In this document: positions 5,586-47,242 of the stretch, in pieces
Layout: each line of letters begins with the position of its first letter
How positions within the stretch are numbered: the first letter of the stretch is position 1
Origin: an uncultured Granulosicoccaceae bacterium
GTDB taxonomy: Bacteria; Pseudomonadota; Gammaproteobacteria; Granulosicoccales; Granulosicoccaceae
DNA length: 54,583 nt
Direction of reading: 5' to 3'
NCBI GenBank assembly: GCA_937922015.1
Contig: CAKZVB010000051.1
Coordinates: forward strand, 1-54,583
Notes under the pieces: model-generated
What the model was told of the DNA's origin: nothing
The model's database searches: none
Seen by the model: only the letters and a program-made list of their open reading frames with translations
Position numbers and translations under genes: made by a program

Positions 5586-6509
5586 TCAATAGCCAAGCCC
5601 GGGATCAGTCAGATCCTCAATTGTTTCGCCGTTGATAAACGCCTTTAAATTATTCGCTATTTCTCTACCGCCGGCCTCAGGATCTATCATTGACGCTATA
5701 TGCGGTGTCACCAGAATTTTTGGATGAGTCCAGAAAGGGTGGGTTGCGGGCAGGGGTTCTTCTCTGAACACGTCCAGTGTTGCATGACCAATCCGGCCTG
5801 TGTCCAGTGCCTCCAGCAAGTCTTCTTCAACCAGATGCTCACCTCTTGCGGCATTAATGATACAGGCAGCTGCGGGAAGCTTTGCGAACAGTTCTTTATT
5901 GAGCAGGTTTCTGGTAGACGCTGTTAGTGGTAATAGACACACCAGTATTTCACAGCCTTGCAAAAATTCGTCTAGTTGGTTTTTGCTGTAGGTTGTTACC
6001 CCTGTTATCCGGTGTTCTTTAATTGCCCAGCCGGTGACATTGAACCCTATTACAGAGAGACAGCGAGCGGCGTCTGCACCAAGTTTGCCTAGTCCCATGA
6101 TGCCTACCTGTCGCTGGTGTGCGGGGGGAGTGACCAGGTTTTCCCATTGTTGTTTTGTCTGTGCGGATTGCGTATCAGCCAGTCGCCGGTGATGTCGCAA
6201 TACATGCAGGCATATATACTCGCGCATGCGCAATGTCAGGTCTGAACCGGTGGTGCGTATGACGGGTACGTTTGGACGCTGTCTGTCCTGCAGTATGTGA
6301 TCAATGCCAGCCCCAATCGAGATGACGCACTTCAGGTTGGGGAAGGTGGCAAGCCATCCGTCAGGAGGCGCCCATGCAACGACATATAAAACATCGTCGG
6401 GGTCTTCGATGTCGTCCCATAACCGGCACCTGAGTTCAGGTAGCAACGTTTGCAGATGTTCAAGCCACAACTGTTTGCGCTTGGTAGTTAAGTACAGGGC
6501 CAGAGTCAT
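5586..6509 (-). CDS. D-2-hydroxyacid dehydrogenase, glyoxylate/hydroxypyruvate reductase A type
   Basis: The protein is 307 residues from ATG 6509, which follows GGAACCCGAT; an upstream ATG at 6554 lacks such a site. The N-terminal substrate-binding lobe includes VVAWAPPDGWLA and ISIGAGIDHIL. The NAD(P)-binding Rossmann motif GIMGLGKLGADAAR follows. Later come CLLPLTASTRNLLN, INAARGEHLVEEDLL and TLDVFREEPLPATHPFW, then the catalytic-type HPKILVTPHIAS. Length and motifs match GhrA-like reductases, which reduce glyoxylate or hydroxypyruvate in the cytoplasm. The exact substrate cannot be told from sequence. Confidence 0.88.
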   Translation of the reverse strand: MTLALYLTTKRKQLWLEHLQTLLPELRCRLWDDIEDPDDVLYVVAWAPPDGWLATFPNLKCVISIGAGIDHILQDRQRPNVPVIRTTGSDLTLRMREYICLHVLRHHRRLADTQSAQTKQQWENLVTPPAHQRQVGIMGLGKLGADAARCLSVIGFNVTGWAIKEHRITGVTTYSKNQLDEFLQGCEILVCLLPLTASTRNLLNKELFAKLPAAACIINAARGEHLVEEDLLEALDTGRIGHATLDVFREEPLPATHPFWTHPKILVTPHIASMIDPEAGGREIANNLKAFINGETIEDLTDPGLGY

Positions 6510-6907
6510 ATCGGGTTCCGGAAGCTGCAAGCAGGCGTTTACCGCTGATGGCAAGTGAAGATATTTTATATGGTTTTGTGTGTAGCGCTGTTACCGGCGC
6601 AAATGTAAACACATTGGCAGGATATTGCGCGTTATTTTTTCCGGCTTGCAGGGCAAACATGAGCCCATGACCGCCGTAGGAACAACCAGACAGAGATCTG
6701 CTGCTGAGTTCGCGCCTGCCATTGGATTTTTACAAAAATCAGCTGGGAACCGTGTCGGCGTGTCCGTTAGATCTGTCAGTATGATGAATGCGCGGCAGTT
6801 AATGGCAACAATTTCTTACATTGCTTGCGTTGTTTACGCTGCTCGGTCACCATATCTCAGTGCAGAGGGAAAATTCCCTGTTATTAGTTCATTCGAGGAC
6901 AAAAAAT
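6510..6907. other. Intergenic region without a recognisable gene
   Basis: About 400 bp lie between the divergent dehydrogenase and DUF533 genes. The short open frames here have no family features and no ribosome-binding sites. Promoters for both genes should lie here, but no convincing -35/-10 pair stood out. Confidence 0.5.
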
Positions 6908-7678
6908 ATGAGTTTGGTTGGAACTTTGGCGAAAGTCGCTGTAGGCGCAATGGTCGCAAAGGGTGTTAGTGGTGCCATGAAAGGCGGCGGTGCCGGTGCT
7001 GGCGGCGGATTGGGTGGACTGTTGGGTGGGCTGCTTGGCCAGGCCGGTGGTGCTGGCGGACTCGGCGGCATGCTGGGTGGCCAGGGTCAGCAACAGGGAC
7101 AGCAGGGCCAGGCCGGTGGAGGTCTGGGTGGAATGCTTGGTGGACTACTGAGTGGTCAGCAAGGTGGGCAACCCGGCGCTCAGCAAGGACAAGCCGGTGG
7201 AGGTCTTGGCGGATTGCTCGAATCGCTTGGTGGTGGAGGTCAGGCCGGTGGACAAGCGGGTGGTGGTCTGGGTGATTTGCTTAACTCTGCATTGGCAGGT
7301 AACGAGCAGCCTCCTACACCCACAGCAGAGCAACAGGCAGAAATCTGTTTGCGTGCCATGTTGAACGCCGCCAAGTGCGACGGTCAGATCGACGCGGCAG
7401 AACAACAAAAAATTACCAGCCAGATTGGCGATATCTCGCCGGAAGAAGCCGAATTCATTCGCAACGAAATGGCCGCGCCGCCAAACTTTGATGCCTTTGT
7501 TCAGAGCGTGCCGGCAGGGATGGAGCAGCAGGTATATCTGATGTCAATTCTGGCGATTGATCTGGACAGTCAGGTTGAAGCGCAATACCTGGACAAGCTG
7601 GCCAAAGGCTTGAACATTGATCAGCAGACCAGTAACGCGATCCACCAGAAGCTTGGTGTACCAGCACTCTACAGCTAG
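6908..7678 (+). CDS. Gly/Gln-rich DUF533 (TerB-like) protein
   Basis: ATG 6908 follows GAGGACAAAAAAT, giving 256 residues. The start MSLVGTLAKVAVGAMVAKG is amphipathic or membrane-seeking. Residues about 24-135 are a low-complexity Gly/Gln/Leu tract built from GGLGGLLGG and GQQGGQ-like units. The C-terminal 110 residues (ICLRAMLNAAKCDGQIDAAEQQKI through LNIDQQTSNAIHQKLGVPAL) match the helical DUF533/TerB-like domain, related to tellurite-resistance TerB. Its biochemical role is unknown. A good hairpin terminator follows the stop, so it is probably transcribed alone. Confidence 0.8.
   Translation: MSLVGTLAKVAVGAMVAKGVSGAMKGGGAGAGGGLGGLLGGLLGQAGGAGGLGGMLGGQGQQQGQQGQAGGGLGGMLGGLLSGQQGGQPGAQQGQAGGGLGGLLESLGGGGQAGGQAGGGLGDLLNSALAGNEQPPTPTAEQQAEICLRAMLNAAKCDGQIDAAEQQKITSQIGDISPEEAEFIRNEMAAPPNFDAFVQSVPAGMEQQVYLMSILAIDLDSQVEAQYLDKLAKGLNIDQQTSNAIHQKLGVPALYS
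6979..7285 (+). repeat. Coding low-complexity Gly/Gln tandem repeat
   Basis: Degenerate in-frame units encoding GG-L-GG-(L/M)-LGG with intervening Gln/Gly runs. The repeated GGTGG and CAGG trinucleotide pattern makes the tract prone to length variation between strains. Confidence 0.7.
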
Positions 7679-7734
7679 TTGTAGGTCGGTCATGGTAGCG
7701 CCTGCCGGTTTGTGGCAGCCGCTATCGGTGGTAG

Positions 7735-7760
7735 AAGGCGATGCTTTGTATCGCCTTTTC
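7735..7760 (+). terminator. Intrinsic terminator after the DUF533 gene
   Basis: AAGGCGAT (7735-7742) pairs perfectly with ATCGCCTT (7750-7757) around a 7-nt loop, and the T-run continues to 7759. Confidence 0.7.
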
Positions 7761-7828
7761 CATAGGTGGTGTGAAGTTCTGGCGCTGTAGGCAACATCGG
7801 TTTCCGCGGTCTGGTTGCGTACTGACCG

Positions 7829-8236
7829 CTAGCCGCCGGACATATCAAACGCATCGTCTATTGGTGGTTTTATTGCGTTCAACAGATGGTTTGTCCGTGC
7901 TGCGGTAGACACAATTCTAAGCAGTTCGGCGTGCTCTGCATCAGTCATTCCACGTGCCCTGGCGGCAGCCGTGTGTGAGTGGACACAATAGTTACACGAA
8001 TTCGCGATAGACACTGCAGCGTAAATCATCTCCTTGGTTTTGAAGTCGATCAGTGTAGGCCGGGCCATCACGTCTCTGACATCTGTCCAGACCTCTTCCA
8101 GAAGTTGTGGATCAAACGCAAGGTGACGCCACACGTTGTTTATAAAATCATTGCCTCGAACTTCTCTTATATCATCGAATACGGCCTTTACCCGGGGGTT
8201 GGATTCGGGATTGACCGGTGGAGTTATCGTTGACAT
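7829..8236 (-). CDS. Carboxymuconolactone decarboxylase / AhpD-like protein
   Basis: This 135-residue protein has the AhpD-type core: MIYAAVSIANSCNYCVHSHTAAARARG, with a CxxC pair and a nearby His that act as a peroxidase or disulfide redox centre in AhpD relatives. Length matches the single-domain CMD family. Such proteins either reduce peroxides with a thiol partner or have unknown small-molecule roles. No partner gene is adjacent; the closest neighbour is an SDR transcribed away from it. Function beyond redox-type CMD is not resolvable. Confidence 0.85.
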   Translation of the reverse strand: MSTITPPVNPESNPRVKAVFDDIREVRGNDFINNVWRHLAFDPQLLEEVWTDVRDVMARPTLIDFKTKEMIYAAVSIANSCNYCVHSHTAAARARGMTDAEHAELLRIVSTAARTNHLLNAIKPPIDDAFDMSGG

Positions 8237-8490
8237 GGTTTTGACCTGTGATTGATGTGGAGCGATTTATCATAGGGCTGTCAAATCGGCATGTAAATTA
8301 TTTCAGAAACGATCCGCGACAGGGCTATTTTGCGATGCTGAATCACACGGAGTATTAAATATCGGTAGTGTGTGAGTGAGGCATTGCTTGATTCAGTGGC
8401 TGTTGCACACGTTATGTCCATTTATCTCATGTTGAGCCTTACTGGCGTTAGAATAAGCCCCTACTACGTTAAAAAAGAAGCGAAACCAAC

Positions 8491-9255
8491 ATGCATGAAT
8501 TACATGGACAAGCGGCCATTATCACCGGAGCCAGTCGAGGCATCGGGGCAGCGACCGCAGCGGAACTGGCTAATGCGGGTGTGTCTGTAATTCTGGCTGC
8601 CAGATCAGAGTCCGATATCCGTCACAATGCGCAGATGATCCGGGAAAGCGGCGGGCAGGCAGAAGCGGTCACGTGTGACGTTAGCAAATACAAAGACGTG
8701 CAGGCACTTATATCCCATTGTGAGTCCACATTTGGTCGCATGGATATATTGATCAATAACGCCGGTGTGATTGAGCCAATCGGGCATCTGGCCACTTCGG
8801 ACCCGGATGTCTGGTCACATGCTGCCGATATAAATTTCAAAGGGGTATATTTTGGATTGAGAGCCGCTTTGCCTCTCATGCAATCGCAACAAAAAGGCAC
8901 CATCATCAATATCGGTTCAGGTGCTGCGCACAGTCCACTGGAAGGCTGGAGCCACTACTGCGCTTCAAAGGCAGCTACTGCTATGTTGACGAAGTGTGCT
9001 CACAAAGAAGTGTCAGGCACCGGTGTTCGTATATTTAGTTTAAGTCCGGGTACTGTCGCTACGGAAATGCAAGTGCTTATTAAAGCCTCAGGCATAAACC
9101 CGGTGAGCCAGATGGATGAGTCTGATCATATTGATCCACGCTGGCCGGCTAAGGCGATACTGTGGTTATGTTCGGAAGATGCGGTTGAGTTTAGTGGGGA
9201 GGAGGTTTCGCTTCGCGATGAGCTTATTCGTAAGCGGGCAGGAATTGAGATTTAA
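8491..9255 (+). CDS. Short-chain dehydrogenase/reductase (SDR)
   Basis: 254 residues starting MHELHGQAAIITGASRGIG. The cofactor motif is TGASRGIG, followed by the structural NNAG (ILINNAGVIEP), catalytic Ser in IINIGSGAAHSP and Tyr/Lys in HYCASKAATAM, so the classical SDR catalytic set is complete. The C-terminal part (DPRWPAKAILWLCSEDAVEFSGEEVSLRDE) is standard for a classical SDR. It catalyses an NAD(P)-dependent oxidoreduction of an unknown carbonyl or alcohol. It stands alone, with about 400 bp of noncoding DNA before miaB. Confidence 0.88.
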   Translation: MHELHGQAAIITGASRGIGAATAAELANAGVSVILAARSESDIRHNAQMIRESGGQAEAVTCDVSKYKDVQALISHCESTFGRMDILINNAGVIEPIGHLATSDPDVWSHAADINFKGVYFGLRAALPLMQSQQKGTIINIGSGAAHSPLEGWSHYCASKAATAMLTKCAHKEVSGTGVRIFSLSPGTVATEMQVLIKASGINPVSQMDESDHIDPRWPAKAILWLCSEDAVEFSGEEVSLRDELIRKRAGIEI

Positions 9256-9672
9256 GCCTGCCTTGATATCTGTTCCGGCACTGCAAGGGCGTGCCACCAT
9301 GGCGTTTGACGAGGTCAGAGCTCGAGGCCGTGTTCAAATAGAGACGAAATCTAAGCAAGACCCTATTGAAATCCACGCAGGTTTGCGTCCGGGATCTGAG
9401 CGGAATTTTTTAACTTCAACCGGCTGTGACGGGCCGTGGCAGTCGCGCCTGCCGGGATCCTGTGGGTAGTGCGTACGTTCACCGTGGACGCCAGTGGTTG
9501 GTCGGTCATGTGCCTGAACTGCCGGTATTTACCAGAAATCGGGCAAATGACCTGTCAATTGTCTTTTTTATCCGAAATTTCTGTTACAACCCTCGCTTAA
9601 TCATGTAGCAGTGATTGGATCAGGGCTGGAAAAAGCGTATGCTGGCGGGCTTATTCACGTGAAAAATACTTA
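9256..9672. other. Intergenic region before miaB
   Basis: No coding sequence with family features was found in these roughly 420 bp. It should hold the promoter of the miaB operon; an AT-rich stretch at about 9555-9600 is the best place, but no clean hexamer pair was seen. Confidence 0.4.
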
Positions 9673-11016
9673 ATGCGACAAAAGGTTTTTGTCAAAACGC
9701 ACGGTTGTCAGATGAACGAGTACGACTCGGACAAAATGATAGGCGTGCTTGACGAGCGATTCGGCGTTGATGTGACCGACGATCCGGCCGAGGCCGATAT
9801 TCTGCTGGTCAATACTTGCTCCATTCGGGAAAAAGCACAGGAAAAGGTATTTTCCCAGCTTGGTCGATGGCGTCCATACAAGGAAAAGCGCAAGGATGTG
9901 CTGATTGCGGTGGCTGGCTGTGTGGCCAGTCAGGAAGGCGCTGCATTACAGGAAAGGGCCCCCTACGTTGATCTGGTGGTCGGTCCGCAGACTATTCATC
10001 GCCTTGCAGATATGGTTGAGACCACCCGCCTGGAAAAACGGCCGCTGGTTGACGTCAGTTTCCCCGAAATAGAAAAATTCGATAACCTGCCCGAGCCGAA
10101 AATGGATGGCCCGACGGCGTTTGTATCGATCATGGAAGGGTGCAGCAAATACTGTAGTTTCTGTGTTGTCCCGTACACCCGCGGCGAAGAGATCAGCCGC
10201 CCGTTTGACGATGTAATAGTAGAGGTCGCCTCACTGGCAGAGCAGGGCGTGCGCGAAGTCAATCTGCTTGGTCAGAATGTGAATGGCTATCGTGGTGAAA
10301 TGCACGATGGTGAAGTTGCTGACCTGGCCATGTTAATTTCGGTCGTGGCATCGATAGACGGTATTGAGCGCATACGCTTCACCACGTCACACCCGATTGA
10401 ATTTGGTGATCGACTTATACAGGCCTATGCCGAGGTGCCGGAGCTGGCAAGCTTCCTTCATTTGCCTGTGCAGTCCGGGTCAGACCGTATCCTGGCTGCT
10501 ATGAAGCGTGGTCATACGGCTATCGAATACAAATCAAAAATCAGACAATTAATGAAGGCACGCCCCGGTATGTCATTGTCTTCTGATTTTATCATCGGCT
10601 TCCCCGGTGAAACCGACAGTGACTTTGAACAAACTATGTCACTGATAACCCAGCTGGGTTTTGATCAGTCGTTTAGCTTTATCTATAGCGCCAGACCCGG
10701 TACACCAGCCGCGTCACTCGAAGATCCTGTCCCTATGGATGTAAAAAAACAGCGACTGGCAACCTTGCAAAAAACCATCAATGCACAAGCCTATGCCATT
10801 AGTGAATCTATGGTGGGTACCACACAAAGAATATTGGTAGAGCGACCTTCAACTCGCGATGCATCAGAAATGGCCGGACGCACGGAGAATAATCGTGTGG
10901 TTAATTTTGCCGGTGAACAAACTCTGGTGGGGAAATTTGTAGATGTTGAAATAACAGATGCCAGACCCAACTCACTGCGTGGAAAGTTTCTTCAGATAAA
11001 TGACCCGGCTTTTTAA
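9673..11016 (+). CDS. miaB: tRNA-2-methylthio-N6-dimethylallyladenosine synthase MiaB
   Basis: 447 residues, the usual MiaB length. The N-terminal MTTase domain holds the first cluster cysteines ([32 protein letters not shown]). The radical-SAM motif is [15 protein letters not shown] (CxxxCxxC). Later motifs include [15 protein letters not shown] and [12 protein letters not shown], followed by a C-terminal TRAM domain ([11 protein letters not shown]..). The enzyme methylthiolates i6A37 in tRNAs that read UNN codons. It heads a same-strand series with ybeZ, ybeY, corC and lnt, as in many gammaproteobacteria. Confidence 0.97.
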
Positions 11017-11061
11017 AACCAACACTGGGACTACACTTCAGTATGCAGGATATGCAATAAC

Positions 11062-12129
11062 TTGGCATCACTAGAATTTTATCTTCGGCCGGATGATAAC
11101 AAGCGTCTGGCAAATCTTTGCGGTCAGTTTGACGAGCATTTAAAACAAATCGAAGGGCGCCTTGGTGTCGAACTACAAAACCGCGGTGGCGACTTTAGAG
11201 TTTCCGGTTCGGACAAAGTGGTGCGCAGTGCCCGCAGTGTGGTGCAAAGTTTATACGATGCCACAAAACGTGAAACACTAACCCCTGAAAAAATACACTT
11301 GTACCTGCAGGAGGCTGATTTGGACGAGGTTGACATGCAATCAAGTCCCGCACAAACAAATCGTGGGCAATCGAAACGAGGCCAGTCAGATCAGGATCAA
11401 TCGACTGATTTCGCACAAGACAACGATCAATCTGCCGGCGCTGATATTTCCACGCGTCGCGTAAAAATACGTTGTCGTGGCAAAAACCAGATCCAATATG
11501 TGGAAAACATCCGCGACTATGACCTGAGCTTTGGTGTGGGGCCTGCGGGTACCGGCAAAACTTACCTTGCAGTTGCCTGTGCTGTCGAAGCGCTGGAGCG
11601 CGAGCAGGTGCGGCGTCTTGTGCTGGTGCGTCCGGCTGTGGAGGCTGGTGAACGACTTGGTTTTCTGCCCGGTGATCTCACTCAGAAAGTAGATCCTTAC
11701 CTGCGCCCTATATATGATGCGCTTTACGAGTTCCTGGGTTTTGAGCGAGTGGCCAAGCTGATCGAAAAAAATGTCATTGAAATTGCCCCGCTGGCCTACA
11801 TGCGTGGTCGTACCTTAAACCATGCCTGCGTGATTATGGACGAAGCGCAAAATACCACGGTCGAGCAAATGAAAATGTTTCTTACCCGTATCGGTTTCGG
11901 ATCAAATGCGATTGTCACCGGTGATGTCACTCAGGTCGATTTACCGAAGCATGTACTTTCAGGTCTTAAACATGTGCGTGGCGTGTTGGATGGCGTGGAA
12001 GGGATAGGCTTCTGCGACTTTCAGGCTCGCGATGTGGTCCGTCATCCATTGGTGCAAAAAATAGTGGGTGCCTATGATGCTGCAGACAAACGTGAGGAAA
12101 AGAAAAGCCGTGCCGGCAACAGCGACTGA
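11062..12129 (+). CDS. ybeZ: PhoH-family ATPase YbeZ
   Basis: 355 residues using a TTG start at 11062; no in-frame ATG fits upstream. An N-terminal region of about 110 residues (SLEFYLRPDDNKRLANLCGQ..) is followed by a charged, Gln-rich linker (RGQSKRGQSDQDQS). The PhoH ATPase domain has Walker A GPAGTGKTYLAVA and Walker B CVIMDEAQNTT, with VTGDVTQVDLP. YbeZ is a cytoplasmic ATPase linked to the endoribonuclease YbeY and ribosome maturation, and ybeY follows 16 bp downstream. The Gln/Asp-rich linker is longer than I expect for the family. Confidence 0.93.
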   Translation: MASLEFYLRPDDNKRLANLCGQFDEHLKQIEGRLGVELQNRGGDFRVSGSDKVVRSARSVVQSLYDATKRETLTPEKIHLYLQEADLDEVDMQSSPAQTNRGQSKRGQSDQDQSTDFAQDNDQSAGADISTRRVKIRCRGKNQIQYVENIRDYDLSFGVGPAGTGKTYLAVACAVEALEREQVRRLVLVRPAVEAGERLGFLPGDLTQKVDPYLRPIYDALYEFLGFERVAKLIEKNVIEIAPLAYMRGRTLNHACVIMDEAQNTTVEQMKMFLTRIGFGSNAIVTGDVTQVDLPKHVLSGLKHVRGVLDGVEGIGFCDFQARDVVRHPLVQKIVGAYDAADKREEKKSRAGNSD

Positions 12130-12145
12130 TGCGCCCCATGATCCA

Positions 12146-12697
12146 ATGAATGCTCGGCAGCATGGGGAAATATTAAACGTAGATCTGCAATGGGAATGTG
12201 CAGATGTGCAAAACTGCCCGAGCGCCGAAAAAATACGCCTGTGGGCCGTAGCCGCGTGTCAGCAACAACCGGATAAGTCGGCACTGCCAGCTGAGGTCAC
12301 CATCCGTATTGTCGACTCCGCGGAAATGCAAAGTGCCAATGCGCAGTGGCGAGGGCAGGATAAAACAACCAATGTACTGTCGTTTCCGGCCGACTTTCCA
12401 GCCGAGGCTGGATTGAATTATTTTGGTGATATTCTAGTGTGTGCAGAGGTGTTACGCACTGAAAGCGACCAGCAGGGTAAGCTTGCGGAAGCTCACTGGG
12501 CACATATCGTGGTTCACGGTATGCTGCATCTGCAAGGTTATGATCACATTGAAGATAGCGAGGCGACAGTAATGGAGCGGTGCGAAGTAGAAATTCTCAG
12601 AACACTGGGATATTCAAATCCCTATCTGGTAAATTCCGGTGGCATTGAGTCGGGACCAGCAGGGATGCGTGATATCACCGATGTAGAAAAAAACTGA
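12146..12697 (+). CDS. ybeY: Endoribonuclease YbeY
   Basis: From ATG 12146 the protein has 183 residues; an earlier in-frame ATG at 12068 would overlap ybeZ by about 60 bp and adds unrelated sequence. The family signature is HIVVHGMLHLQGYDHIEDSEA, the HGxLHLxGYDH zinc site. RGQDKTTNVLSFPAD and YFGDILVCAE are also typical. YbeY is a metal-dependent single-strand RNase for 16S rRNA 3' maturation and 70S quality control. Its stop overlaps the corC start in a TGATG arrangement, suggesting translational coupling. Confidence 0.92.
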   Translation: MNARQHGEILNVDLQWECADVQNCPSAEKIRLWAVAACQQQPDKSALPAEVTIRIVDSAEMQSANAQWRGQDKTTNVLSFPADFPAEAGLNYFGDILVCAEVLRTESDQQGKLAEAHWAHIVVHGMLHLQGYDHIEDSEATVMERCEVEILRTLGYSNPYLVNSGGIESGPAGMRDITDVEKN

Positions 12698-30986: not shown

Positions 30987-31607
30987 ATGTCTCTCAGACA
31001 AGAGATTCGATCTATCAGCACCGAGTTAGACACCGCAGACCTGCTGCGTCATCTAATTGTTGAAAGATTTCCCGGTGATGTTGTGGTGACCGCGTCTCTG
31101 CGGGCGCAGAGTATCTGTGTGTTGAAGATGATCGCTGATATTGATGCGGCGACCCCTGTCATTTTTTGTCAGCGTCCACCTGTCTTTGAAGAGAGTGCCG
31201 AGTATCGGGCGCTCATTGTAGACAAGCTGGGGTTGTCTAATGTGTCTTTAAATGACGGGCGCGAAACAACCGTTGCCGCCGGTGATCGTGATCATTGCGA
31301 GCGGATGTGGGTCCACTATCGCGATATGCCCGGTCGCTCATCGCATCTGTTACACATTAATGAATGTCTTTCGAATTATAGTTGCTGGATCAGTGCGGTT
31401 TATCATGCAGATCCTGCCGAAGTCGCGCACAATCGCGTTGATGTTGAAGGTCGTTTAATTAAAGTTGATCCGCTTGCGCGCTGGACTAAAAAAGATGTGC
31501 AGCAGTTTATGAGTGATCAAAACCTCCCGTACCACAAAATGGCAAAGCGCGAATTCAGCTACGACGATACCCGTGAAAGAGGTACTTACCCGATGTATCA
31601 TTTTTAG
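30987..31607 (+). CDS. CysH-like PAPS-reductase-fold protein lacking catalytic cysteines
   Basis: 206 residues with the overall layout of CysH: GDVVVTASLRAQSICVLKMIADID in the position of the PP-loop, AATPVIF..PPVFEESAEY in place of the TGxLFPET segment, and VDPLARWTKKDVQQFMSDQNLPYHKM matching the CysH C-terminal domain. Key features are missing. There is no CC..CxxC cluster set of APS reductases (NECLSNYSCW stands near its place), and no ECGxH tail; the protein ends RERGTYPMYHF. The PP-loop itself is poorly conserved. It is probably not a working PAPS/APS reductase; a regulatory or different adenylyl-related role is possible. sat follows 82 bp downstream. Confidence 0.65.
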   Translation: MSLRQEIRSISTELDTADLLRHLIVERFPGDVVVTASLRAQSICVLKMIADIDAATPVIFCQRPPVFEESAEYRALIVDKLGLSNVSLNDGRETTVAAGDRDHCERMWVHYRDMPGRSSHLLHINECLSNYSCWISAVYHADPAEVAHNRVDVEGRLIKVDPLARWTKKDVQQFMSDQNLPYHKMAKREFSYDDTRERGTYPMYHF

Positions 31608-31689
31608 CGCATCCTGTTAGCATAGTTTCTTTTTGCGCTGATCAGCGTTGCAGCACTGCTGTGTACTGGCAATAAATCAAGGCAAACAA

Positions 31690-32883
31690 ATGGCAAATCT
31701 TATTCAACCCCACGGCTCTGACAGGCTCAATCCTCTCTATGTGCAGGATACTGCTGAGCGACAGAAGCTCAGTCAGGAGGCGCCGTCTCTGAACTCAGTC
31801 CTGGTGAGCTCGGCAACTGCCGGCAACGCGGTGATGTTGGGTGCCGGATATTTCACGCCATTGAATGGTTTTATGAACAAGGCAGACGCGCTGTCAGTTG
31901 GCAGTCGCATGCATACCGTCGACGGGTTGTTCTGGCCCACACCTGTGATGAACCTGGTTGCCGAAGCACCGGACGTGAAGGTGGGTGATCGAATTGCCCT
32001 CAGGGACCCGAATGTTGATGGCTCACCGGTACTGGCTATTCAGCAGGTTGATGCAATAGAGACGTTTACCTCGTCAGAGCTTGAACAACTGGCGCAACAG
32101 GTATATGGCACAACTGACGCTCAGCACCCGGGTGTTGCGGAATTTTTAGCACAAGGTAGCGTGGCGATCTCAGGCGCGGTGCAGGTACTCAACTACAGCT
32201 ACTTCGAAACCGAATTTCCGGATACCTTTCGTACCGCCACTGATATCAGGGATTCTATTTCGAAAATGGGCTGGAATCGCGTGGTGGCTTTTCAAACACG
32301 AAACCCGATGCATCGAGCCCATGAAGAACTCTGTCGCATGGCGATGGAACGGCTCGATGCAGATGGCCTTGTGATACATATGCTGCTGGGCAAGCTGAAG
32401 CCCGGTGATATTCCTGCGCCGGTCAGAGATGCTTCTATCAGAAAAATGATAGAACTCTATTTTCCTGCGAACTCGGCGCTAATCACCGGCTATGGTTTTG
32501 ACATGTTATACGCAGGCCCGCGTGAAGCATTGTTGCACGCCGTGTTTCGACAGAACATGGGAGCCACACATTTTATAATCGGCCGTGATCATGCAGGTGT
32601 CGGCGACTACTACGAACCTTTTGAAGCGCAGGAAATATTCGATCAAATACCCGCAGGCGCATTGAAAATAGAAATGTTTATGGCTGACCACACGGCGTAT
32701 TCAAAGAAGCTGGATAAGGTGGTGATGATGCGGGAAGCCCCGGACCATACTAAAGAGGACTTTATCCTGTTATCCGGTACCGCAGTGAGAGAAATGTTAG
32801 GAAAAGGGGAGGCGCCTCCACCGGAATTCTCCCGACCCGAAGTGGCAGAGATTCTGATGAAGTACTATCAGGCACAGGGGTGA
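31690..32883 (+). CDS. sat: ATP sulfurylase (sulfate adenylyltransferase, Sat type)
   Basis: 397 residues from ATG 31690, preceded by AAGGCAAACAA; the frame opens at 31648 without a site. An N-terminal PUA-like domain (LNSVLVSSATAGNAVMLGAGYFTPLNGFM) is followed by the catalytic nucleotidyl-transferase domain. The active-site motif is VVAFQTRNPMHRAHE, with FIIGRDHAGVGDYY further on. Sat converts ATP and sulfate to APS and PPi; in sulfur oxidisers it can run in reverse. It is unrelated in fold to CysDN, which the window also encodes. Confidence 0.94.
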   Translation: MANLIQPHGSDRLNPLYVQDTAERQKLSQEAPSLNSVLVSSATAGNAVMLGAGYFTPLNGFMNKADALSVGSRMHTVDGLFWPTPVMNLVAEAPDVKVGDRIALRDPNVDGSPVLAIQQVDAIETFTSSELEQLAQQVYGTTDAQHPGVAEFLAQGSVAISGAVQVLNYSYFETEFPDTFRTATDIRDSISKMGWNRVVAFQTRNPMHRAHEELCRMAMERLDADGLVIHMLLGKLKPGDIPAPVRDASIRKMIELYFPANSALITGYGFDMLYAGPREALLHAVFRQNMGATHFIIGRDHAGVGDYYEPFEAQEIFDQIPAGALKIEMFMADHTAYSKKLDKVVMMREAPDHTKEDFILLSGTAVREMLGKGEAPPPEFSRPEVAEILMKYYQAQG

Positions 32884-41860: not shown

Positions 41861-43774
41861 TCAGTCGATTTCTGTGATAACCCCGTGCTGTTTTAGCGCG
41901 CTGATGACTCTTTCTGCACACTGCTCTGCCGACATTGAAGAGGTGTCGACCAGAATCTCCGGCGACTCGGGTTGCTCGTAGGGTGAGTCAATACCGGTGA
42001 AGTTTTTCAAGTCACCGCGACGGGCCTTTTTATATAAGCCTTTCGGGTCCCGTTGCTCTGCAACCGCCAGCGGGGTTTCTACGTAGACTTCCAGGAACTC
42101 ACCCTCGTCCAGAAGGCTGCGTGCCATCTGACGCTCTGCAATGAATGGTGAAATGAAGGCGGTTAGTACTATAAGTCCGCTATCTACCATAAGGTTTGCC
42201 ACTTCACCAATGCGGCGTATGTTTTCTACGCGATCTTCATCGGTAAAACCCAGGTCTTTGTTCAGGCCGTGACGCACATTATCGCCATCCAGCAAGTAGG
42301 TGTGGCGGCCTTGTGCGGCCAGTTTTTTCTCAACTATATTCGCAATGGTCGATTTGCCGGATCCCGACAAGCCGGTAAACCACAGTACACAGGATTTCTG
42401 GGCTTTGAGTTCTGATCTCAGTTTTTTATCTACATCCACAGCCTGCATATGAATGTTCTGCGATCGTCGCAGAGCAAAATTCAGTGTGCCCGCAGCCACC
42501 GTGTTGTTGGTGATTCGATCGACCAGTATGTAGCTTCCGGTTGTATGGTTATCGATATAGTTGTCAAAGGCTATTTGCCGGTCCAGATTAAGGTTGCAAA
42601 TACCAATGCTGTTCAGTTCTAATTTTTTAGAAGCGGCATGTTCAAGCGTATTTACATTTACTTCGTGTTTAATATCAGTGATGGTTGCTGTGGCTGTCGC
42701 GGTGCCGCATTGCAGCGTGTAGGGTCTGCCCGGAAGTAGCGCTTCGTCGTCCATCCATACCAGTGTGCTTTCGAATTGGTTGGCGGTGCTCGCCGGTGTG
42801 TCGGTGGTGGAAATTACATCGCCACGCGAGATGTCGACTTCTTCTTTTAATGTCAGTGTGACGGCTTGTCCCGCAATAGCAGAGTCGATGTCGCCGTCCT
42901 GTGTAACGATGCGGTCAATGGTTGCGGTCTTGCCGGACGGTTGTATGCGCACCGCGTCACCGGTTTTAACAATGCCGCTGGCGATTGTGCCCGCAAAGCC
43001 GCGAAAGTCCAGGTTAGGCCTGTTTACCCATTGAACCGGCAGTCGAAACGGCGCGTCGATTGAAAGGTCAGAGTCGACCTTTACGGTTTCCAGATACGAA
43101 AGCAGAGTAGTGCCGTGATACCAGCTCATGTTCTGGCTAGGTTCAATTATGTTGTCGCCGTTCAGTGCTGACATTGGAATTGCAGTGGTGTGTTCCAGGT
43201 TTAATTGTTCTGATAACTCAGAGAAACTCTCGACGATTTCGTTGAAAGTCTCTTCGCTGTGTTTGACGAGATCCATCTTATTGACGGCCAGAACAACATT
43301 TTTTATTCCGACCAGTGAAACCAGATAAGCGTGGCGTCGTGTCTGTGTGAGAATGCCTTTGCGTGCGTCAACCAAAAGAATGGCGACATCTGCAGTGGAG
43401 GCTCCTGTGATCATATTGCGGGTGTATTGTTCGTGCCCCGGTGTGTCTGCAACAATAAACTTGCGTTTGTCGGTATTGAAGTAACGATAGGCAACGTCAA
43501 TGGTAATGCCTTGTTCGCGCTCTGCGGCCAGACCATCTACCAGTAATGCGAGGTCCGGTTCGTTGTCCTGGGTGCCGAACTTCTTTGAGTCTGCAGTGAT
43601 AGCGTCCAGCTGGTCTTCAAATAGTGATTTTGAATCAAACAGCAAACGGCCGATTAAAGTACTTTTTCCATCATCTACGCTGCCGCAGGTGATAAAGCGC
43701 AACATGCCTTTATTTTCGTGCTGTTCAAGGTAGGTTTCGATGTCTTCTTGAATGATTTTTGTAGAAGTAGCCAT
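41861..43774 (-). CDS. cysNC: Bifunctional sulfate adenylyltransferase subunit 1 / APS kinase (CysNC)
   Basis: 637 residues. The N-terminal GTPase (CysN) has GSVDDGKSTLIGRLL (G1), ADTPGHEQYTRNM (G3) and AVNKMDL (G4), followed by EF-Tu-like beta barrels. The C-terminal APS kinase (CysC) has WFTGLSGSGKSTIA (P-loop) and LLDGDNVRHGLNKDLGF. CysN uses GTP hydrolysis to drive APS formation by CysD, and CysC then phosphorylates APS to PAPS. The fusion is like NodQ. Its ATG overlaps the cysD stop (TAATG), giving coupling. Confidence 0.95.
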   Translation of the reverse strand: MATSTKIIQEDIETYLEQHENKGMLRFITCGSVDDGKSTLIGRLLFDSKSLFEDQLDAITADSKKFGTQDNEPDLALLVDGLAAEREQGITIDVAYRYFNTDKRKFIVADTPGHEQYTRNMITGASTADVAILLVDARKGILTQTRRHAYLVSLVGIKNVVLAVNKMDLVKHSEETFNEIVESFSELSEQLNLEHTTAIPMSALNGDNIIEPSQNMSWYHGTTLLSYLETVKVDSDLSIDAPFRLPVQWVNRPNLDFRGFAGTIASGIVKTGDAVRIQPSGKTATIDRIVTQDGDIDSAIAGQAVTLTLKEEVDISRGDVISTTDTPASTANQFESTLVWMDDEALLPGRPYTLQCGTATATATITDIKHEVNVNTLEHAASKKLELNSIGICNLNLDRQIAFDNYIDNHTTGSYILVDRITNNTVAAGTLNFALRRSQNIHMQAVDVDKKLRSELKAQKSCVLWFTGLSGSGKSTIANIVEKKLAAQGRHTYLLDGDNVRHGLNKDLGFTDEDRVENIRRIGEVANLMVDSGLIVLTAFISPFIAERQMARSLLDEGEFLEVYVETPLAVAEQRDPKGLYKKARRGDLKNFTGIDSPYEQPESPEILVDTSSMSAEQCAERVISALKQHGVITEID

Positions 43775-45651
43775 TAGAAGTATCCCTCCTGCTTTTTCAT
43801 TTCCATGGATGCTGAGCTGTCGTGGTCAATCATGCGTCCCTGTCGTTCAGAATTTTTTGCTAGCAGCATTTCCTGAATGATTTCGGGTAAAGTGGTGGCG
43901 TTCGACTCTATGGCACCGGTCAGCGGGTAGCAGCCAAGGGTACGAAAGCGTACGTTTTTAATCATCGGAACTTCGCCTTCATTCATTGGCATGCGATCAT
44001 CGTCGACCATGATTAGCGTTCCATCTCGCATCACTACCGGTCGTTGTGCGGAGTAGTACAGAGGCACTATAGGAATTCCTTCGAGGTGTATGTACTGCCA
44101 TACATCGAGTTCTGTCCAGTTTGAGATAGGGAAGACGCGAATAGACTCGCCTTTATTTTTAGTGGTGTTGTACAGGTTCCAGAGTTCTGGTCTCTGGTTT
44201 TTTGGATCCCACCGGTGTTGTTCTGAGCGAAACGAAAAAATGCGCTCCTTGGCGCGTGATTGTTCTTCGTCGCGTCTGGCGCCGCCTAAAGCGATATCGA
44301 ATTGATGTTTGTCCAGTGCCTGGCGCAGGCCCTGGGTTTTCATGATGTCAGTGTGCAGTGCCGATCCGTGTGTAAAAGGATTTACACCTTTTTCCACGCC
44401 TTCCTGATTTTGATGAGTGATCAGTTCAAGGTTCAGATCTTTTGCTGTCTGGTCGCGAAAGGAATACATTTCCTGAAACTTCCAGCCGGTGTCTACATGC
44501 AGCAGGGGGAAGGGAAGTTTGGCCGGATAAAAAGCCTTGCGGGCAAGGTGCAGCATAACGGCGCTGTCCTTGCCGATAGAATAAAGCATCACTGGTTTGT
44601 CTGAGTTTGCAATAACCTCCCGCATGATGTGGATGCTTTCTGCTTCCAGTTGCTGGAGATGAGTTAGCGATGTCATCGGTTGTATTTTCCTTTTTTCTCG
44701 CGGTACTTTGCGATTTTCATTGCTTGATTTAGCTGGGGTGGTAGTTGTCTTTAATTCTGCAGTTGGCGGTTGTGCCGGTGTGGTTATGCTGCTCTCTTTT
44801 GCATTACCGGTATTCACTGTCGAATCCATAGCCGGATCTGAAGACATCGGTGCAGATGGTGTCGTGGCTGTCGGGTGCGGGTAGACAGTGATGTTTGTGT
44901 TTTTGGCTAGTCGTTGTTCAAAGGCAGGGTTATTCGAGATGTCCATGCCATGCAGTATCACGGCGATATCGCTGTTTGCATGTCTGTTCAGGCGTTCGAG
45001 AAAATCAAACAGGTGCTCAATGTCAGAGGCATGGCCGCTGCCGCCCAGCCAGCAATACTGGCCGCGTGTGGTGTGGGCGTATAACAGAGGGATGTCACCT
45101 GATTTTGTTTTACCGGTCTTGCGGCCCACCCAGAAGATATTCGCGTCTGCCTTGCGCGATTTTTCGACGATAAGTTTGTATGTGGAGTTAAGCCAGTCCA
45201 GCTGGTCGCCGGATGTTTTGCACAAAGTGTGAAGATTCCCGGCATCGAGACCCCACTGAGACAGATATTTCCCCAGCGAGCGGCCGCTGATGCTGGCGTC
45301 GTACTGTTCCCGGCAGTGGCTTTCAAGGTTTTTAAGCGTCCACGGCTGGTTGTGTGGTGGTATTTTTTCGGCTGCTGTTCTGACCTGAAGCAGGGTGTCA
45401 TCCGCGAGAGCCATTTGTGTACCGGGACTGCGACCCCGGGGTTTTACATCGACTGCCGGCCAGCCGCCGGAAAGAAACAGCTTGTGGGCGGCAATAATGG
45501 TCGGGGCTGACAATTCAACGATGGCGGAAATATCGGCAATTTTTTGACCTTGCAGGCGCATTTTGACCGCGAGGCGCCTTCTCTCGTTTAATACTTGCTG
45601 GCTGGTTGATGTCTTAGTCATGGGAGTTGTAGCGGTAAAAACATTAAACAT
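43774..45651 (-). CDS. cysD: CysD with N-terminal IS630-transposase-like DNA-binding extension
   Basis: 625 residues. Residues about 326-625 are a full-length CysD ([17 protein letters not shown].., PP-loop [32 protein letters not shown]), catalysing APS formation with CysN. Residues about 20-260 read as an IS630-type transposase. HTH segments are [53 protein letters not shown] and [18 protein letters not shown]-like fold follows with [28 protein letters not shown]. Where transposases have FWxDE this has FWVGR, and LILDN is VILHG, so catalytic acids are gone. A Thr/Pro/Ser-rich linker (about 258-325) joins the parts with no stop. ATG 45621 is an alternative start. Confidence 0.85.
44674..44692 (-). 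promoter_or_regulatory. Possible internal ribosome-binding site and start for a short CysD
   Basis: On the minus strand AAGGAAAA (44692-44685) lies about 11 nt before ATG 44676, the methionine that begins CysD homology. This would allow a 300-residue CysD alongside the 625-residue fusion. The spacing is slightly long. Confidence 0.4.
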
Positions 45652-45684
45652 TTAATTTCATTAATACAGATTAAATATTTAATT
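45643..45684. promoter_or_regulatory. Paired AT-rich palindromic sites at the cysD fusion start
   Basis: ATTAAACATTTAATT (45643-45657) and ATTAAATATTTAATT (45670-45684) differ at one base and start 27 bp apart. The second is a near-perfect dyad around TAAATATTTA. The first overlaps the ATG at 45651. They look like operator half-sites in the spacer shared with the divergent TSP3 gene. The binding protein is unknown; the HTH of the fusion is a candidate. Confidence 0.5.
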
Positions 45685-45847
45685 GCAAGATATATGCTAA
45701 TCCCTGCAGGCACAATAGACAATATGTGAGCCATCCCTGTATTGTTTGCCGCAAAAACAGAATCGAAAATTTGCTGCTGGGGTAGAATAGTGAGGTGCAT
45801 TTCTCACTTTAGGCCCGTTTAGGCCATTTTGTTTCCGAGGATCAGTG

Positions 45848-47242
45848 ATGGGTATAGAAATCAGAGCCGCGATCGTGGCGGGGCTGCTGGTATCGGTTTC
45901 CGGCAATTTGATGGCGCTGGTTCAGCCCGATACTGATGGTGACGGCCTGACCGACCATCAGGAGATCGAGTACGGTACCGATCCGGATGATCCTGACACC
46001 GATTCGGATGGCATCTCCGACGGCAAAGAGATCAATGAGCACGAAACCAATCCGCTGTTGCCCGATAGTGATGACGATGGTCTGACCGACACCAAAGAGT
46101 TGTTTGATATTGGTACTAATCCATTGCGGGTCGATACTGACGGCGACGGCCTGGGTGATGGTTTTGAAGTCAACGAGTGGGGCACGGATCCGCTGATGTG
46201 GGACACAGATGGTGACGGCATTTCCGACGCCGTGGACAAGGCGCCGATTATCGTCACCAATGACAGCGACGGCGATGGTATTACTGATGCCGAAGAGTCA
46301 CAGCTTGGCACTGATCCACTTAACCCGGACACAGACAGCGACGGAACCAGTGATATTGATGAGTTGAACGGGGGCGCTGATCCGGTCAATCCGGATACCG
46401 ATGGCGACGGAATTTTTGATGGTGTCGAGGCAGTCAGTATCCGTGGTCAGGTGGTCACCGATAGCGACGGTGACGGTCTCGGCAATGCGCTGGATCTGGA
46501 TAGTGATCACGACGGACTGCCGGACAGTGTCGAAGGGCATCTGGATTCCGACGGTGACCAGCTTGCAGATTCTTTTGACCTTGACAGCGACAATGACGGT
46601 GTCCCTGATTTGCGTGAGGCTGGCGGGCCTGATGCCGACGGCGATGGTCAGCTGGACAATTATGCAGACCTCAACAACGATGGATTGGCAGATTCGCTGG
46701 AAGATCAGCCGTTAAGCAATCCTGATTCAGATGGGGACGGTATTGCGGATGTACTGGATCTTGATTCGGATAACGACGGTATTTCCGACCTGGTAGAATC
46801 AGGTGGCAGTGATATGGACGGCGATGGTCGTGTTGATGATTTTATAGATATCAACGACGATGGGCTGGTTGACATCATGCAGGGCGGCGTTGTTGTCGAT
46901 ACCGATTCAGATGGCCAGCCGGACAGGCTTGATCTTGATTCTGATAATGACGGTGTTGCGGATGTGATTGCGGGGGGCAGTGTGGATGCTAACGGTGATC
47001 AGCGGGTTGATAATTTTGTTGATCTGAATGCAGACGGTCTCGATGATGGATTAGCGTTGAACCCGCTGGCAGATGGCAGCAGTGCGGATGTGTCTGATGG
47101 TGGCAAAGTGCGAACCGGGTTAGGATGTTCGCTTGGGCGAGGTGCTTACGGTGGTAATATTGATTTAGCTTTTTTGCTGTTGTTGTTAACCGCACTCGCT
47201 GGAATATTCAGGGGAGGTATTCGCGCCCGGTGCTTCAGGTAA
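45848..47242 (+). CDS. Secreted thrombospondin type 3 repeat protein with C-terminal sorting tail
   Basis: 464 residues from ATG 45848, preceded by GAGG. After a weak signal peptide (IRAAIVAGLLVSVSGNLMA) almost the whole protein is calcium-binding TSP3-like repeats: DTDGDGLTDHQEIEYGTDPDD, DTDSDGISDGKEI and many DSDGDG or DSDNDG units. The C-terminus YGGNIDLAFLLLLLTALAGIF followed by basic residues is a GlyGly-CTERM-like tail. Likely a calcium-stiffened surface or exported protein; no catalytic domain is seen. Two small hairpins (AGTGAG/CTCACT at 45789-45808 and GGCC/GGCC at 45812-45825) sit in its leader. Confidence 0.8.
   Translation: MGIEIRAAIVAGLLVSVSGNLMALVQPDTDGDGLTDHQEIEYGTDPDDPDTDSDGISDGKEINEHETNPLLPDSDDDGLTDTKELFDIGTNPLRVDTDGDGLGDGFEVNEWGTDPLMWDTDGDGISDAVDKAPIIVTNDSDGDGITDAEESQLGTDPLNPDTDSDGTSDIDELNGGADPVNPDTDGDGIFDGVEAVSIRGQVVTDSDGDGLGNALDLDSDHDGLPDSVEGHLDSDGDQLADSFDLDSDNDGVPDLREAGGPDADGDGQLDNYADLNNDGLADSLEDQPLSNPDSDGDGIADVLDLDSDNDGISDLVESGGSDMDGDGRVDDFIDINDDGLVDIMQGGVVVDTDSDGQPDRLDLDSDNDGVADVIAGGSVDANGDQRVDNFVDLNADGLDDGLALNPLADGSSADVSDGGKVRTGLGCSLGRGAYGGNIDLAFLLLLLTALAGIFRGGIRARCFR

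Follow-up and report, generated by a model that had tools for sequence, protein, structure and literature searches.

Organization of the fused cysD gene

The window analysed here is a 54,583-nucleotide stretch of contig CAKZVB010000051.1 (assembly GCA_937922015.1) from an uncultured Granulosicoccaceae bacterium. On its minus strand, it carries a gene in which an N-terminal part related to IS630 transposases is joined to a complete CysD, and which overlaps the next gene, cysNC, by TAATG (Table 1). CysD and CysNC together make 3'-phosphoadenosine 5'-phosphosulfate (PAPS). The initial annotation had described a frame running uninterrupted from an IS630-like region through a linker into a complete CysD; this is borne out, on the minus strand, by a single open reading frame (ORF) whose coordinates include the stop, stops being abundant on the plus strand over the same positions. 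Codon 11 (ATG, 45619-45621, minus strand) is the likelier start, because seven relatives of the genus have TTG at the position of codon 1 and all share Met 11. The CysD part matches TIGR02039 over residues 332-625 (E=4.3e-153, 509 bits, model positions 1-294 of 294) and, with all the main CysD blocks present, looks intact and active. Thr, Ser and Pro make up 30 of the 66 residues of the linker (263-328), which is predicted to be disordered over residues 263-326 in the full-length model (overall predicted template modelling score, pTM, 0.47).

Table 1. Features of the fused gene and its surroundings, in positions of the window
Feature	Position	Strand	Remarks
Fused open frame	43774..45651	-	625 aa; codon 11 likely start
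Helix-turn-helix unit 1 (HTH1), residues 18-76	45424..45600	-	Alignments A1 and A3; HTH_29 in 35/35 domains
Helix-turn-helix unit 2 (HTH2), residues 84-147	45211..45402	-	HTH_33 in 18/35 domains; helices of the AlphaFold2 (AF2) model
RNase-H-like domain, residues 148-262, without DDE acids	44866..45210	-	Model and alignment; stops before the NPxE region
Thr/Ser/Pro-rich linker, residues 263-328	44668..44865	-	Predicted disordered 263-326
Possible internal start: AAGGA (44688-44692) 5' of ATG (44674-44676)	44674..44692	-	CysD start
Complete CysD, residues 329-625	43777..44667	-	TIGR02039
cysNC, bifunctional CysN/adenosine 5'-phosphosulfate (APS) kinase	41861..43774	-	PRK05506, 1027 bits
Candidate operator 2, ATTAAATGTTTAAT	45643..45656	-	
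Candidate operator 1, perfect palindrome ATTAAATATTTAAT	45670..45683	-	27 bp from candidate operator 2

Transposase descent and loss of the catalytic acids

Taken alone, the N-terminal part matches the IS630 model NF033545 over residues 24-136 at E=1.7e-9, with 37.5 bits where the curated cut-off is 100. When 35 such N-terminal domains (alignment A3) were compared by hhalign with seven real IS630 transposases from other genomes (alignment A4), the match reached P=100 and E=2e-46 over 255 of 260 columns, up to a point just before the region of the third catalytic acid, so that residues 18-262 are homologous to IS630 transposases lengthwise. An IS630 match in residues 1-260, whose absence had been set beforehand as one of the grounds for dropping the initial annotation, is present. 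Among the 35 domains, HTH_29 was recognised in all, HTH_33 in 18 and DDE_3 in six (E<=0.01), and in a locus cut by a contig end (L051) DDE_3 even exceeds its curated cut-off (32.1 versus 28.6 bits). The structure prediction proposed at the outset returned two helix-turn-helix (HTH) units and an RNase-H-like domain for the N-terminal part (predicted local distance difference test, pLDDT, 91.7); with the domain matches, this agrees with the view that HTH segments remain, here HTH1 and HTH2.

The best Foldseek matches of this model were TnsB of a type V-K CRISPR-associated transposon (four at E<=0.001), followed by retroviral integrase, SETMAR/Metnase and the paired domains of Pax6 and Pax5 (6pax and 1k78, E about 0.01-0.02). 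The Pax paired domain has a Tc1/mariner origin. Query TM-scores of these matches are low (0.19-0.31), and the likeness therefore holds at the level of domains, not of the whole protein. A sequence search of the PDB gave only weak sigma-54 matches (E=0.031). Judged by the profile alignment, the N-terminal module is an IS630 transposase by descent.

The two motifs held to be altered catalytic sites lie in residues 171-180 and 229-238, which in the profile alignment correspond to IYWGDETG and LILDNL in the real IS630 transposases. The protein of the window reads FWVG where W-x-D is expected and VILHG where LILDN is expected, and has neither of the first two acids. The first-acid column holds Asp in nine of 34 aligned proteins and the second an acid in only one (L049); L051, outside these 34, keeps both. 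At the third-acid position the NPxE end motif was not found among the aligned proteins. NPxE-like patterns lying elsewhere, 'NPAFE' in a helix of the window protein and another in the linker of L062, were judged unrelated. Thus, of the features of an IS630 transposase, the HTH units and the RNase-H-like core are found and the complete DDE triad is not. The replacement of the catalytic acids had been correctly anticipated, and on the evidence of these columns the transposase part is CATALYTICALLY dead.

Distribution among relatives and purifying selection

CysD matches were found in 29 of 35 Granulosicoccaceae relatives (28 above the cut-off, and G008, cut by a contig end), and in all 29 the N-terminal match lies in the same frame. 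The stop or separate genes in close relatives that could have undone the initial reading are therefore not seen in the family. The six relatives without a CysD match are G002, G017, G018, G021, G030 and G031, the last having the N-terminal domain at a contig end. The search for the same fusion in other genomes was equally positive: it occurs in 36 of 37 loci from named genomes, the 37th being the contig-cut L051. Outside the Granulosicoccaceae it is present in 17 of 18 further loci (again with L051 as the last), in Comamonas, Achromobacter, Advenella, Pusillimonas, Azohydromonas, Halopseudomonas, Pseudomonas and metagenome-assembled genomes (MAGs); isolates carrying it belong to Comamonas, Achromobacter, Advenella and Halopseudomonas. 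A second CysD was detected in 13 of these 18 genomes, and Comamonas testosteroni is one of the species with such a copy. When the class was sampled evenly, domain-profile matches were obtained in 25 of 369 genomes; the matches read comprise fused genes (G000, G016, G020, G210 and G413), a split one (G415) and others that are real IS630 transposases. An assembly artefact or a chance frame is ruled out by the 29 family relatives, the isolate genomes and the loci from named genomes. Of four pattern stretches in viral sequences none was a relative, and plasmid matches to the N-terminal part were either annotated as IS630 transposases or unannotated, with no cysD annotation among the matches listed.

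Ratios of nonsynonymous to synonymous substitution rates (dN/dS), computed from 12 pairs and undefined where dS was saturated, were 0.02-0.11 for HTH1, 0.06-0.29 for HTH2, 0.04-0.18 for the RNase-H-like domain, 0.25-0.94 for the linker and 0.00-0.03 for CysD. The transposase part is under purifying selection and the linker much less so; HTH1 is the most conserved N-terminal piece (alignments A1 and A3). Acid loss together with low dN/dS supports the domestication and catalytic death that had been suggested. It is very improbable that the N-terminal part is a functionless transposase remnant before CysD, or a local assembly error. Its evolution, about six times faster than that of CysD (mean tree distance 2.57 versus 0.41), would suit such a relic, but dN/dS well below 1 and the occurrence throughout the family and several orders, isolate genomes included, do not, and the relic was rejected on dN/dS.

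Natural variants and origin of the fusion

Several variants of the architecture were retrieved. Two species (G016 and G029; loci L021 and L022) have only HTH1, a short linker and CysD. In G415, G492 and G794, from another family (L114, L118 and L121), the domain is a gene of its own (255-261 aa) directly upstream of cysD and cysNC, with a CitMHS/TrkA_C permease gene divergent on its other side; in G415 a cysQ (TIGR01331) follows cysD-cysNC. A third type is the CysD of L117 (G037; 6076-7587, minus strand), whose N-terminal extension, about 210 residues long, is of another kind and includes a segment resembling the RNase-H-like part (hhalign P=63, E=6.8e-5). Glycosyltransferase-like genes surround it (by eye), and cysNC and cysQ come after its CysD. 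In L049, from a Sterolibacterium MAG (5923-12675), the fused cysD is followed by separate genes for an APS kinase and Sat and, farther along, by a cysN-like gene. What would be intermediate stages of domestication can thus still be seen: forms that retain the first two acids (L049, L051), forms that are dead but complete, forms reduced to the HTH (L021, L022) and split genes (L114, L118, L121).

In the CysD tree, the split G415, G492 and G794 adjoin the fused G210 and G413, and the split f171 stands beside the fused f158 (support 0.93), which suggests fission of a fused gene. The deep clade that would speak for a single origin of the fusion, made up of the fused, split and L117 CysDs, is weak (support 0.32), and the unfused Paracoccus L168 and the contig-cut L091 are nested inside it.

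Fused or split, the domain always stands upstream of cysD in the loci read, with cysNC wherever the locus reaches it. This constancy argues against a role of the fused protein on DNA ends or IS630 copies, for instance as a transposition inhibitor acting in trans with CysD a passive partner. Such a role would draw on the IS630 ancestry, but the N-terminal part also matches a single place in its own genome (E<=0.001), and we give this explanation hardly any weight.

Candidate operators upstream of the fused gene

The fused gene is preceded by TTAAATRTTTAA sites, present as a pair (candidate operators 1 and 2, Table 1). In 14 genomes of the genus, TTAAATATTTAA occurs eight times, always in the roughly 50 bp that precede the fused gene; TTAAATGTTTAA occurs six times, three of them upstream of the fused gene and each of these 27 bp from the first site. 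The genome of the window has TTAAATNTTTAA in five distinct places, two at the fused gene, two inside predicted ORFs and one intergenic, near a gene resembling GlmS (by eye); these places give no sign of a wide regulon in this genome. When 12 upstream regions of the genus were aligned on TTGCA[AT]TTAA, mean identity rose from 0.46 before the block to 0.94 inside it, where it is partly due to the anchoring by construction, and was 0.89 over the ten bases after the anchor.

The shorter motif T[AG]TTTAA precedes 32 of 44 fused genes and none of 16 second or unfused cysD copies; compared with the other genes of the same loci, the figures are 32/43 versus 30/301. By AT content, fused genes exceeded controls at 45-55% (6/9 versus 15/134), 55-62% (10/15 versus 7/38) and 62-70% (14/16 versus 5/11), with 2/2 versus 1/2 at 70-85%. 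With one representative per lineage and 180 bp of upstream sequence, the motif is located 45-78 bases 5' of the first conserved codon in nine of 20 lineages for 0.5 expected (maximum four in 2000 simulations). Outside the genus this fixed distance is found in six of 17 lineages, a count that none of 3000 simulations reached (0.38 expected), in a comparison where the motif was taken from the genus and the distance window was set after all lineages had been viewed. TTTAA or AAGTTT also forms the core of inverted repeats, recorded without a shuffle control, upstream in L061, L048, L114 and L022.

A function of these sites as operators of the fused protein has, besides the anchoring and the choice of motif and distance after inspection of the sequences, several further points against it. 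Across the genomes as a whole, the degenerate pattern occurs no more often than its reversed control (49 versus 56 matches), so that it is the location of the sites, not their number, that is notable. The excess of T[AG]TTTAA is partly a matter of AT-richness, as seen in the 62-70% bin, and the motif was not found in the 180 bp upstream in six of the 20 lineages. A promoter scan recognised nothing on the minus strand, recognition-helix residues showed no regular match with the type of site, and the CysD of L117 has no recognisable HTH1 at its N-terminus.

A proposed autoregulatory trigger enzyme

From the conserved upstream sites we infer a link between sulfate activation and gene control, and we regard it as fairly probable that the fusion is an autoregulatory trigger enzyme for PAPS synthesis. 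PutA of Escherichia coli is described as a repressor that acts at the putA-putP spacer in the absence of proline (PMC8249747), and the same scheme is proposed for HTH-CysD. The domesticated IS630 transposase, its catalytic acids lost, would have kept a paired-type DNA-binding front end; the flexible linker ties it to the intact CysD, the partner of the downstream CysNC in making PAPS. Most likely, the HTH module would bind the TTAAATRTTTAA pair, close to the start of the gene that encodes it and upstream of it, and would so repress cysD-cysNC, perhaps together with the divergent cysQ in Burkholderiales. Engagement of CysD, by assembly with CysN or by nucleotide or APS occupancy, would relieve the repression; with free HTH-CysD on the operators and engaged CysD off them, enzyme demand would set enzyme supply.

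Alternatively, the module may have no specific DNA binding and serve as an interaction or oligomerisation arm of CysD-CysNC, the palindromes belonging to another regulator. The RNase-H-like part, needless for DNA binding alone, is also under selection, and it is a segment like this part, not an HTH1, that may still be recognised in L117. Nevertheless, HTH1 is the best conserved piece and the only N-terminal one kept in L021 and L022, and the site is shared by six of the 17 lineages outside the genus, so that we hold this alternative to be unlikely. Slightly less likely again is that the module activates, or senses flux through a separate pathway of a CysH-like protein and Sat, the operator pair being an activator site. 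The sites do lie slightly upstream of the start, with no promoter recognised by the scan, and a sat and cysH-like pair is present in the window; however, candidate operator 2 extends into the probable leader or start region, which would favour interference.

The proposed trigger enzyme might also be one of two products of the gene. An ATG stands at the CysD start in 12 of 13 genus members, preceded by AAGG, AGGA, GGAG or GAGG in eight of the 13, and such a start is found in the last 36 linker codons of 19 of 50 sequences, many of which are close relatives, compared with 5.0 in codon shuffles (maximum 12 in 500); Granulosicoccus proper is mostly without it. We tentatively raise the possibility, without considering it the likelier case, that the full frame gives an autoregulator and an internal Shine-Dalgarno/ATG a free CysD, a low-copy sensor-repressor and a high-copy enzyme whose balance would be set by CysD-CysN assembly. 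If true, this two-product gene would parallel the Pax story in bacteria and would govern the supply of PAPS.

Sulfur metabolism context

Among the neighbourhoods of the fusion, a divergent cysQ lies upstream in all five such neighbours scanned (L054, L055, L059, L060 and L070), while the downstream genes in Halopseudomonas include one for a sulfotransferase. The window itself encodes an ATP sulfurylase of the Sat type (31648-32883, plus strand; TIGR00339, 390 bits), unrelated to CysD and 11 kb from the fused cysD, beside a cysH-like gene (30987-31607, plus strand; PF01507, below the NCBIfam CysH cut-offs), and its genome has one weak PF13469 match. Taken together, the cysQ and sulfotransferase neighbours, the sat and cysH-like pair and the PF13469 match lead us to lean towards a supply of PAPS for sulfation rather than only for cysteine.

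Some further observations were made on these neighbourhoods. In L050 (9766-12155, plus strand), genes for a DUF1214 protein and a Sulfotransfer_3 sulfotransferase come directly after cysNC, and an old-yellow-enzyme-type oxidoreductase gene is located upstream (best match BaiCD, below cut-off); genes like those of L050 were seen by eye at the same place in Comamonas L054. Only two of the 35 family relatives, G018 and G021, have a canonical CysH above the cut-off, and neither has a CysD above it. The gene divergent from the fused gene in the window (45845-47242, plus strand) encodes Asp/Gly repeats of the DTDGDG type.

Comparison with known systems

In the literature searches made, no title or opening of an abstract described a CysD-transposase fusion. 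The E. coli trigger enzymes given in the available part of PMC8249747 are BirA, NadR, PepA, PutA and PyrH, with no sulfate-activating enzyme among them. If the proposed mechanism is true, these bacteria would control sulfate activation in a way absent from the E. coli model, and a bacterial transposase would have become a transcription regulator joined to an enzyme of core metabolism; the IS630 domestication is directly testable in the culturable Comamonas testosteroni and Halopseudomonas xiamenensis.

The closest functional likeness is with PutA, which also combines an enzyme and a DNA-binding domain in a single protein (judged for the fusion by homology and predicted fold only); the putative binding of the fusion would be confined to the vicinity of its own operon, as that of PutA is to the putA-putP spacer in the same excerpt. 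Unlike in PutA and the other trigger enzymes, the DNA-binding part derives from a transposase. This descent recalls the Pax paired domain, said in the part available of PMC8947103 to stem from an ancestral transposase, as a two-HTH module reused beside another function; here, however, the host is bacterial, the dead RNase-H-like domain is kept and a metabolic enzyme is fused. With the IS630 transposases of NF033545 the module shares HTH1, HTH2 and the RNase-H-like core by homology, but it has no DDE triad or NPxE end, and in the loci read it is joined to or stands beside cysD, apparently without an element of its own. Like ordinary CysDs (TIGR02039), the fused protein contains a complete CysD in an operon with a bifunctional CysNC; the former start at the LTHL block, whereas the fused protein is about 325 residues longer. 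BzdR, as far as the available text of PMC3602430 describes it, likewise links an HTH domain to an enzyme-derived one; its shikimate-kinase-like part is inactive, in contrast to the apparently active CysD and the dead transposase of the fusion. Finally, a fungal PAPS reductase has been reported as a sulfur-assimilation enzyme that is also a transcription factor (PMC4848566), though it is another enzyme with another domain in another kingdom, and the accessible portion of that report mentions no transposase module.

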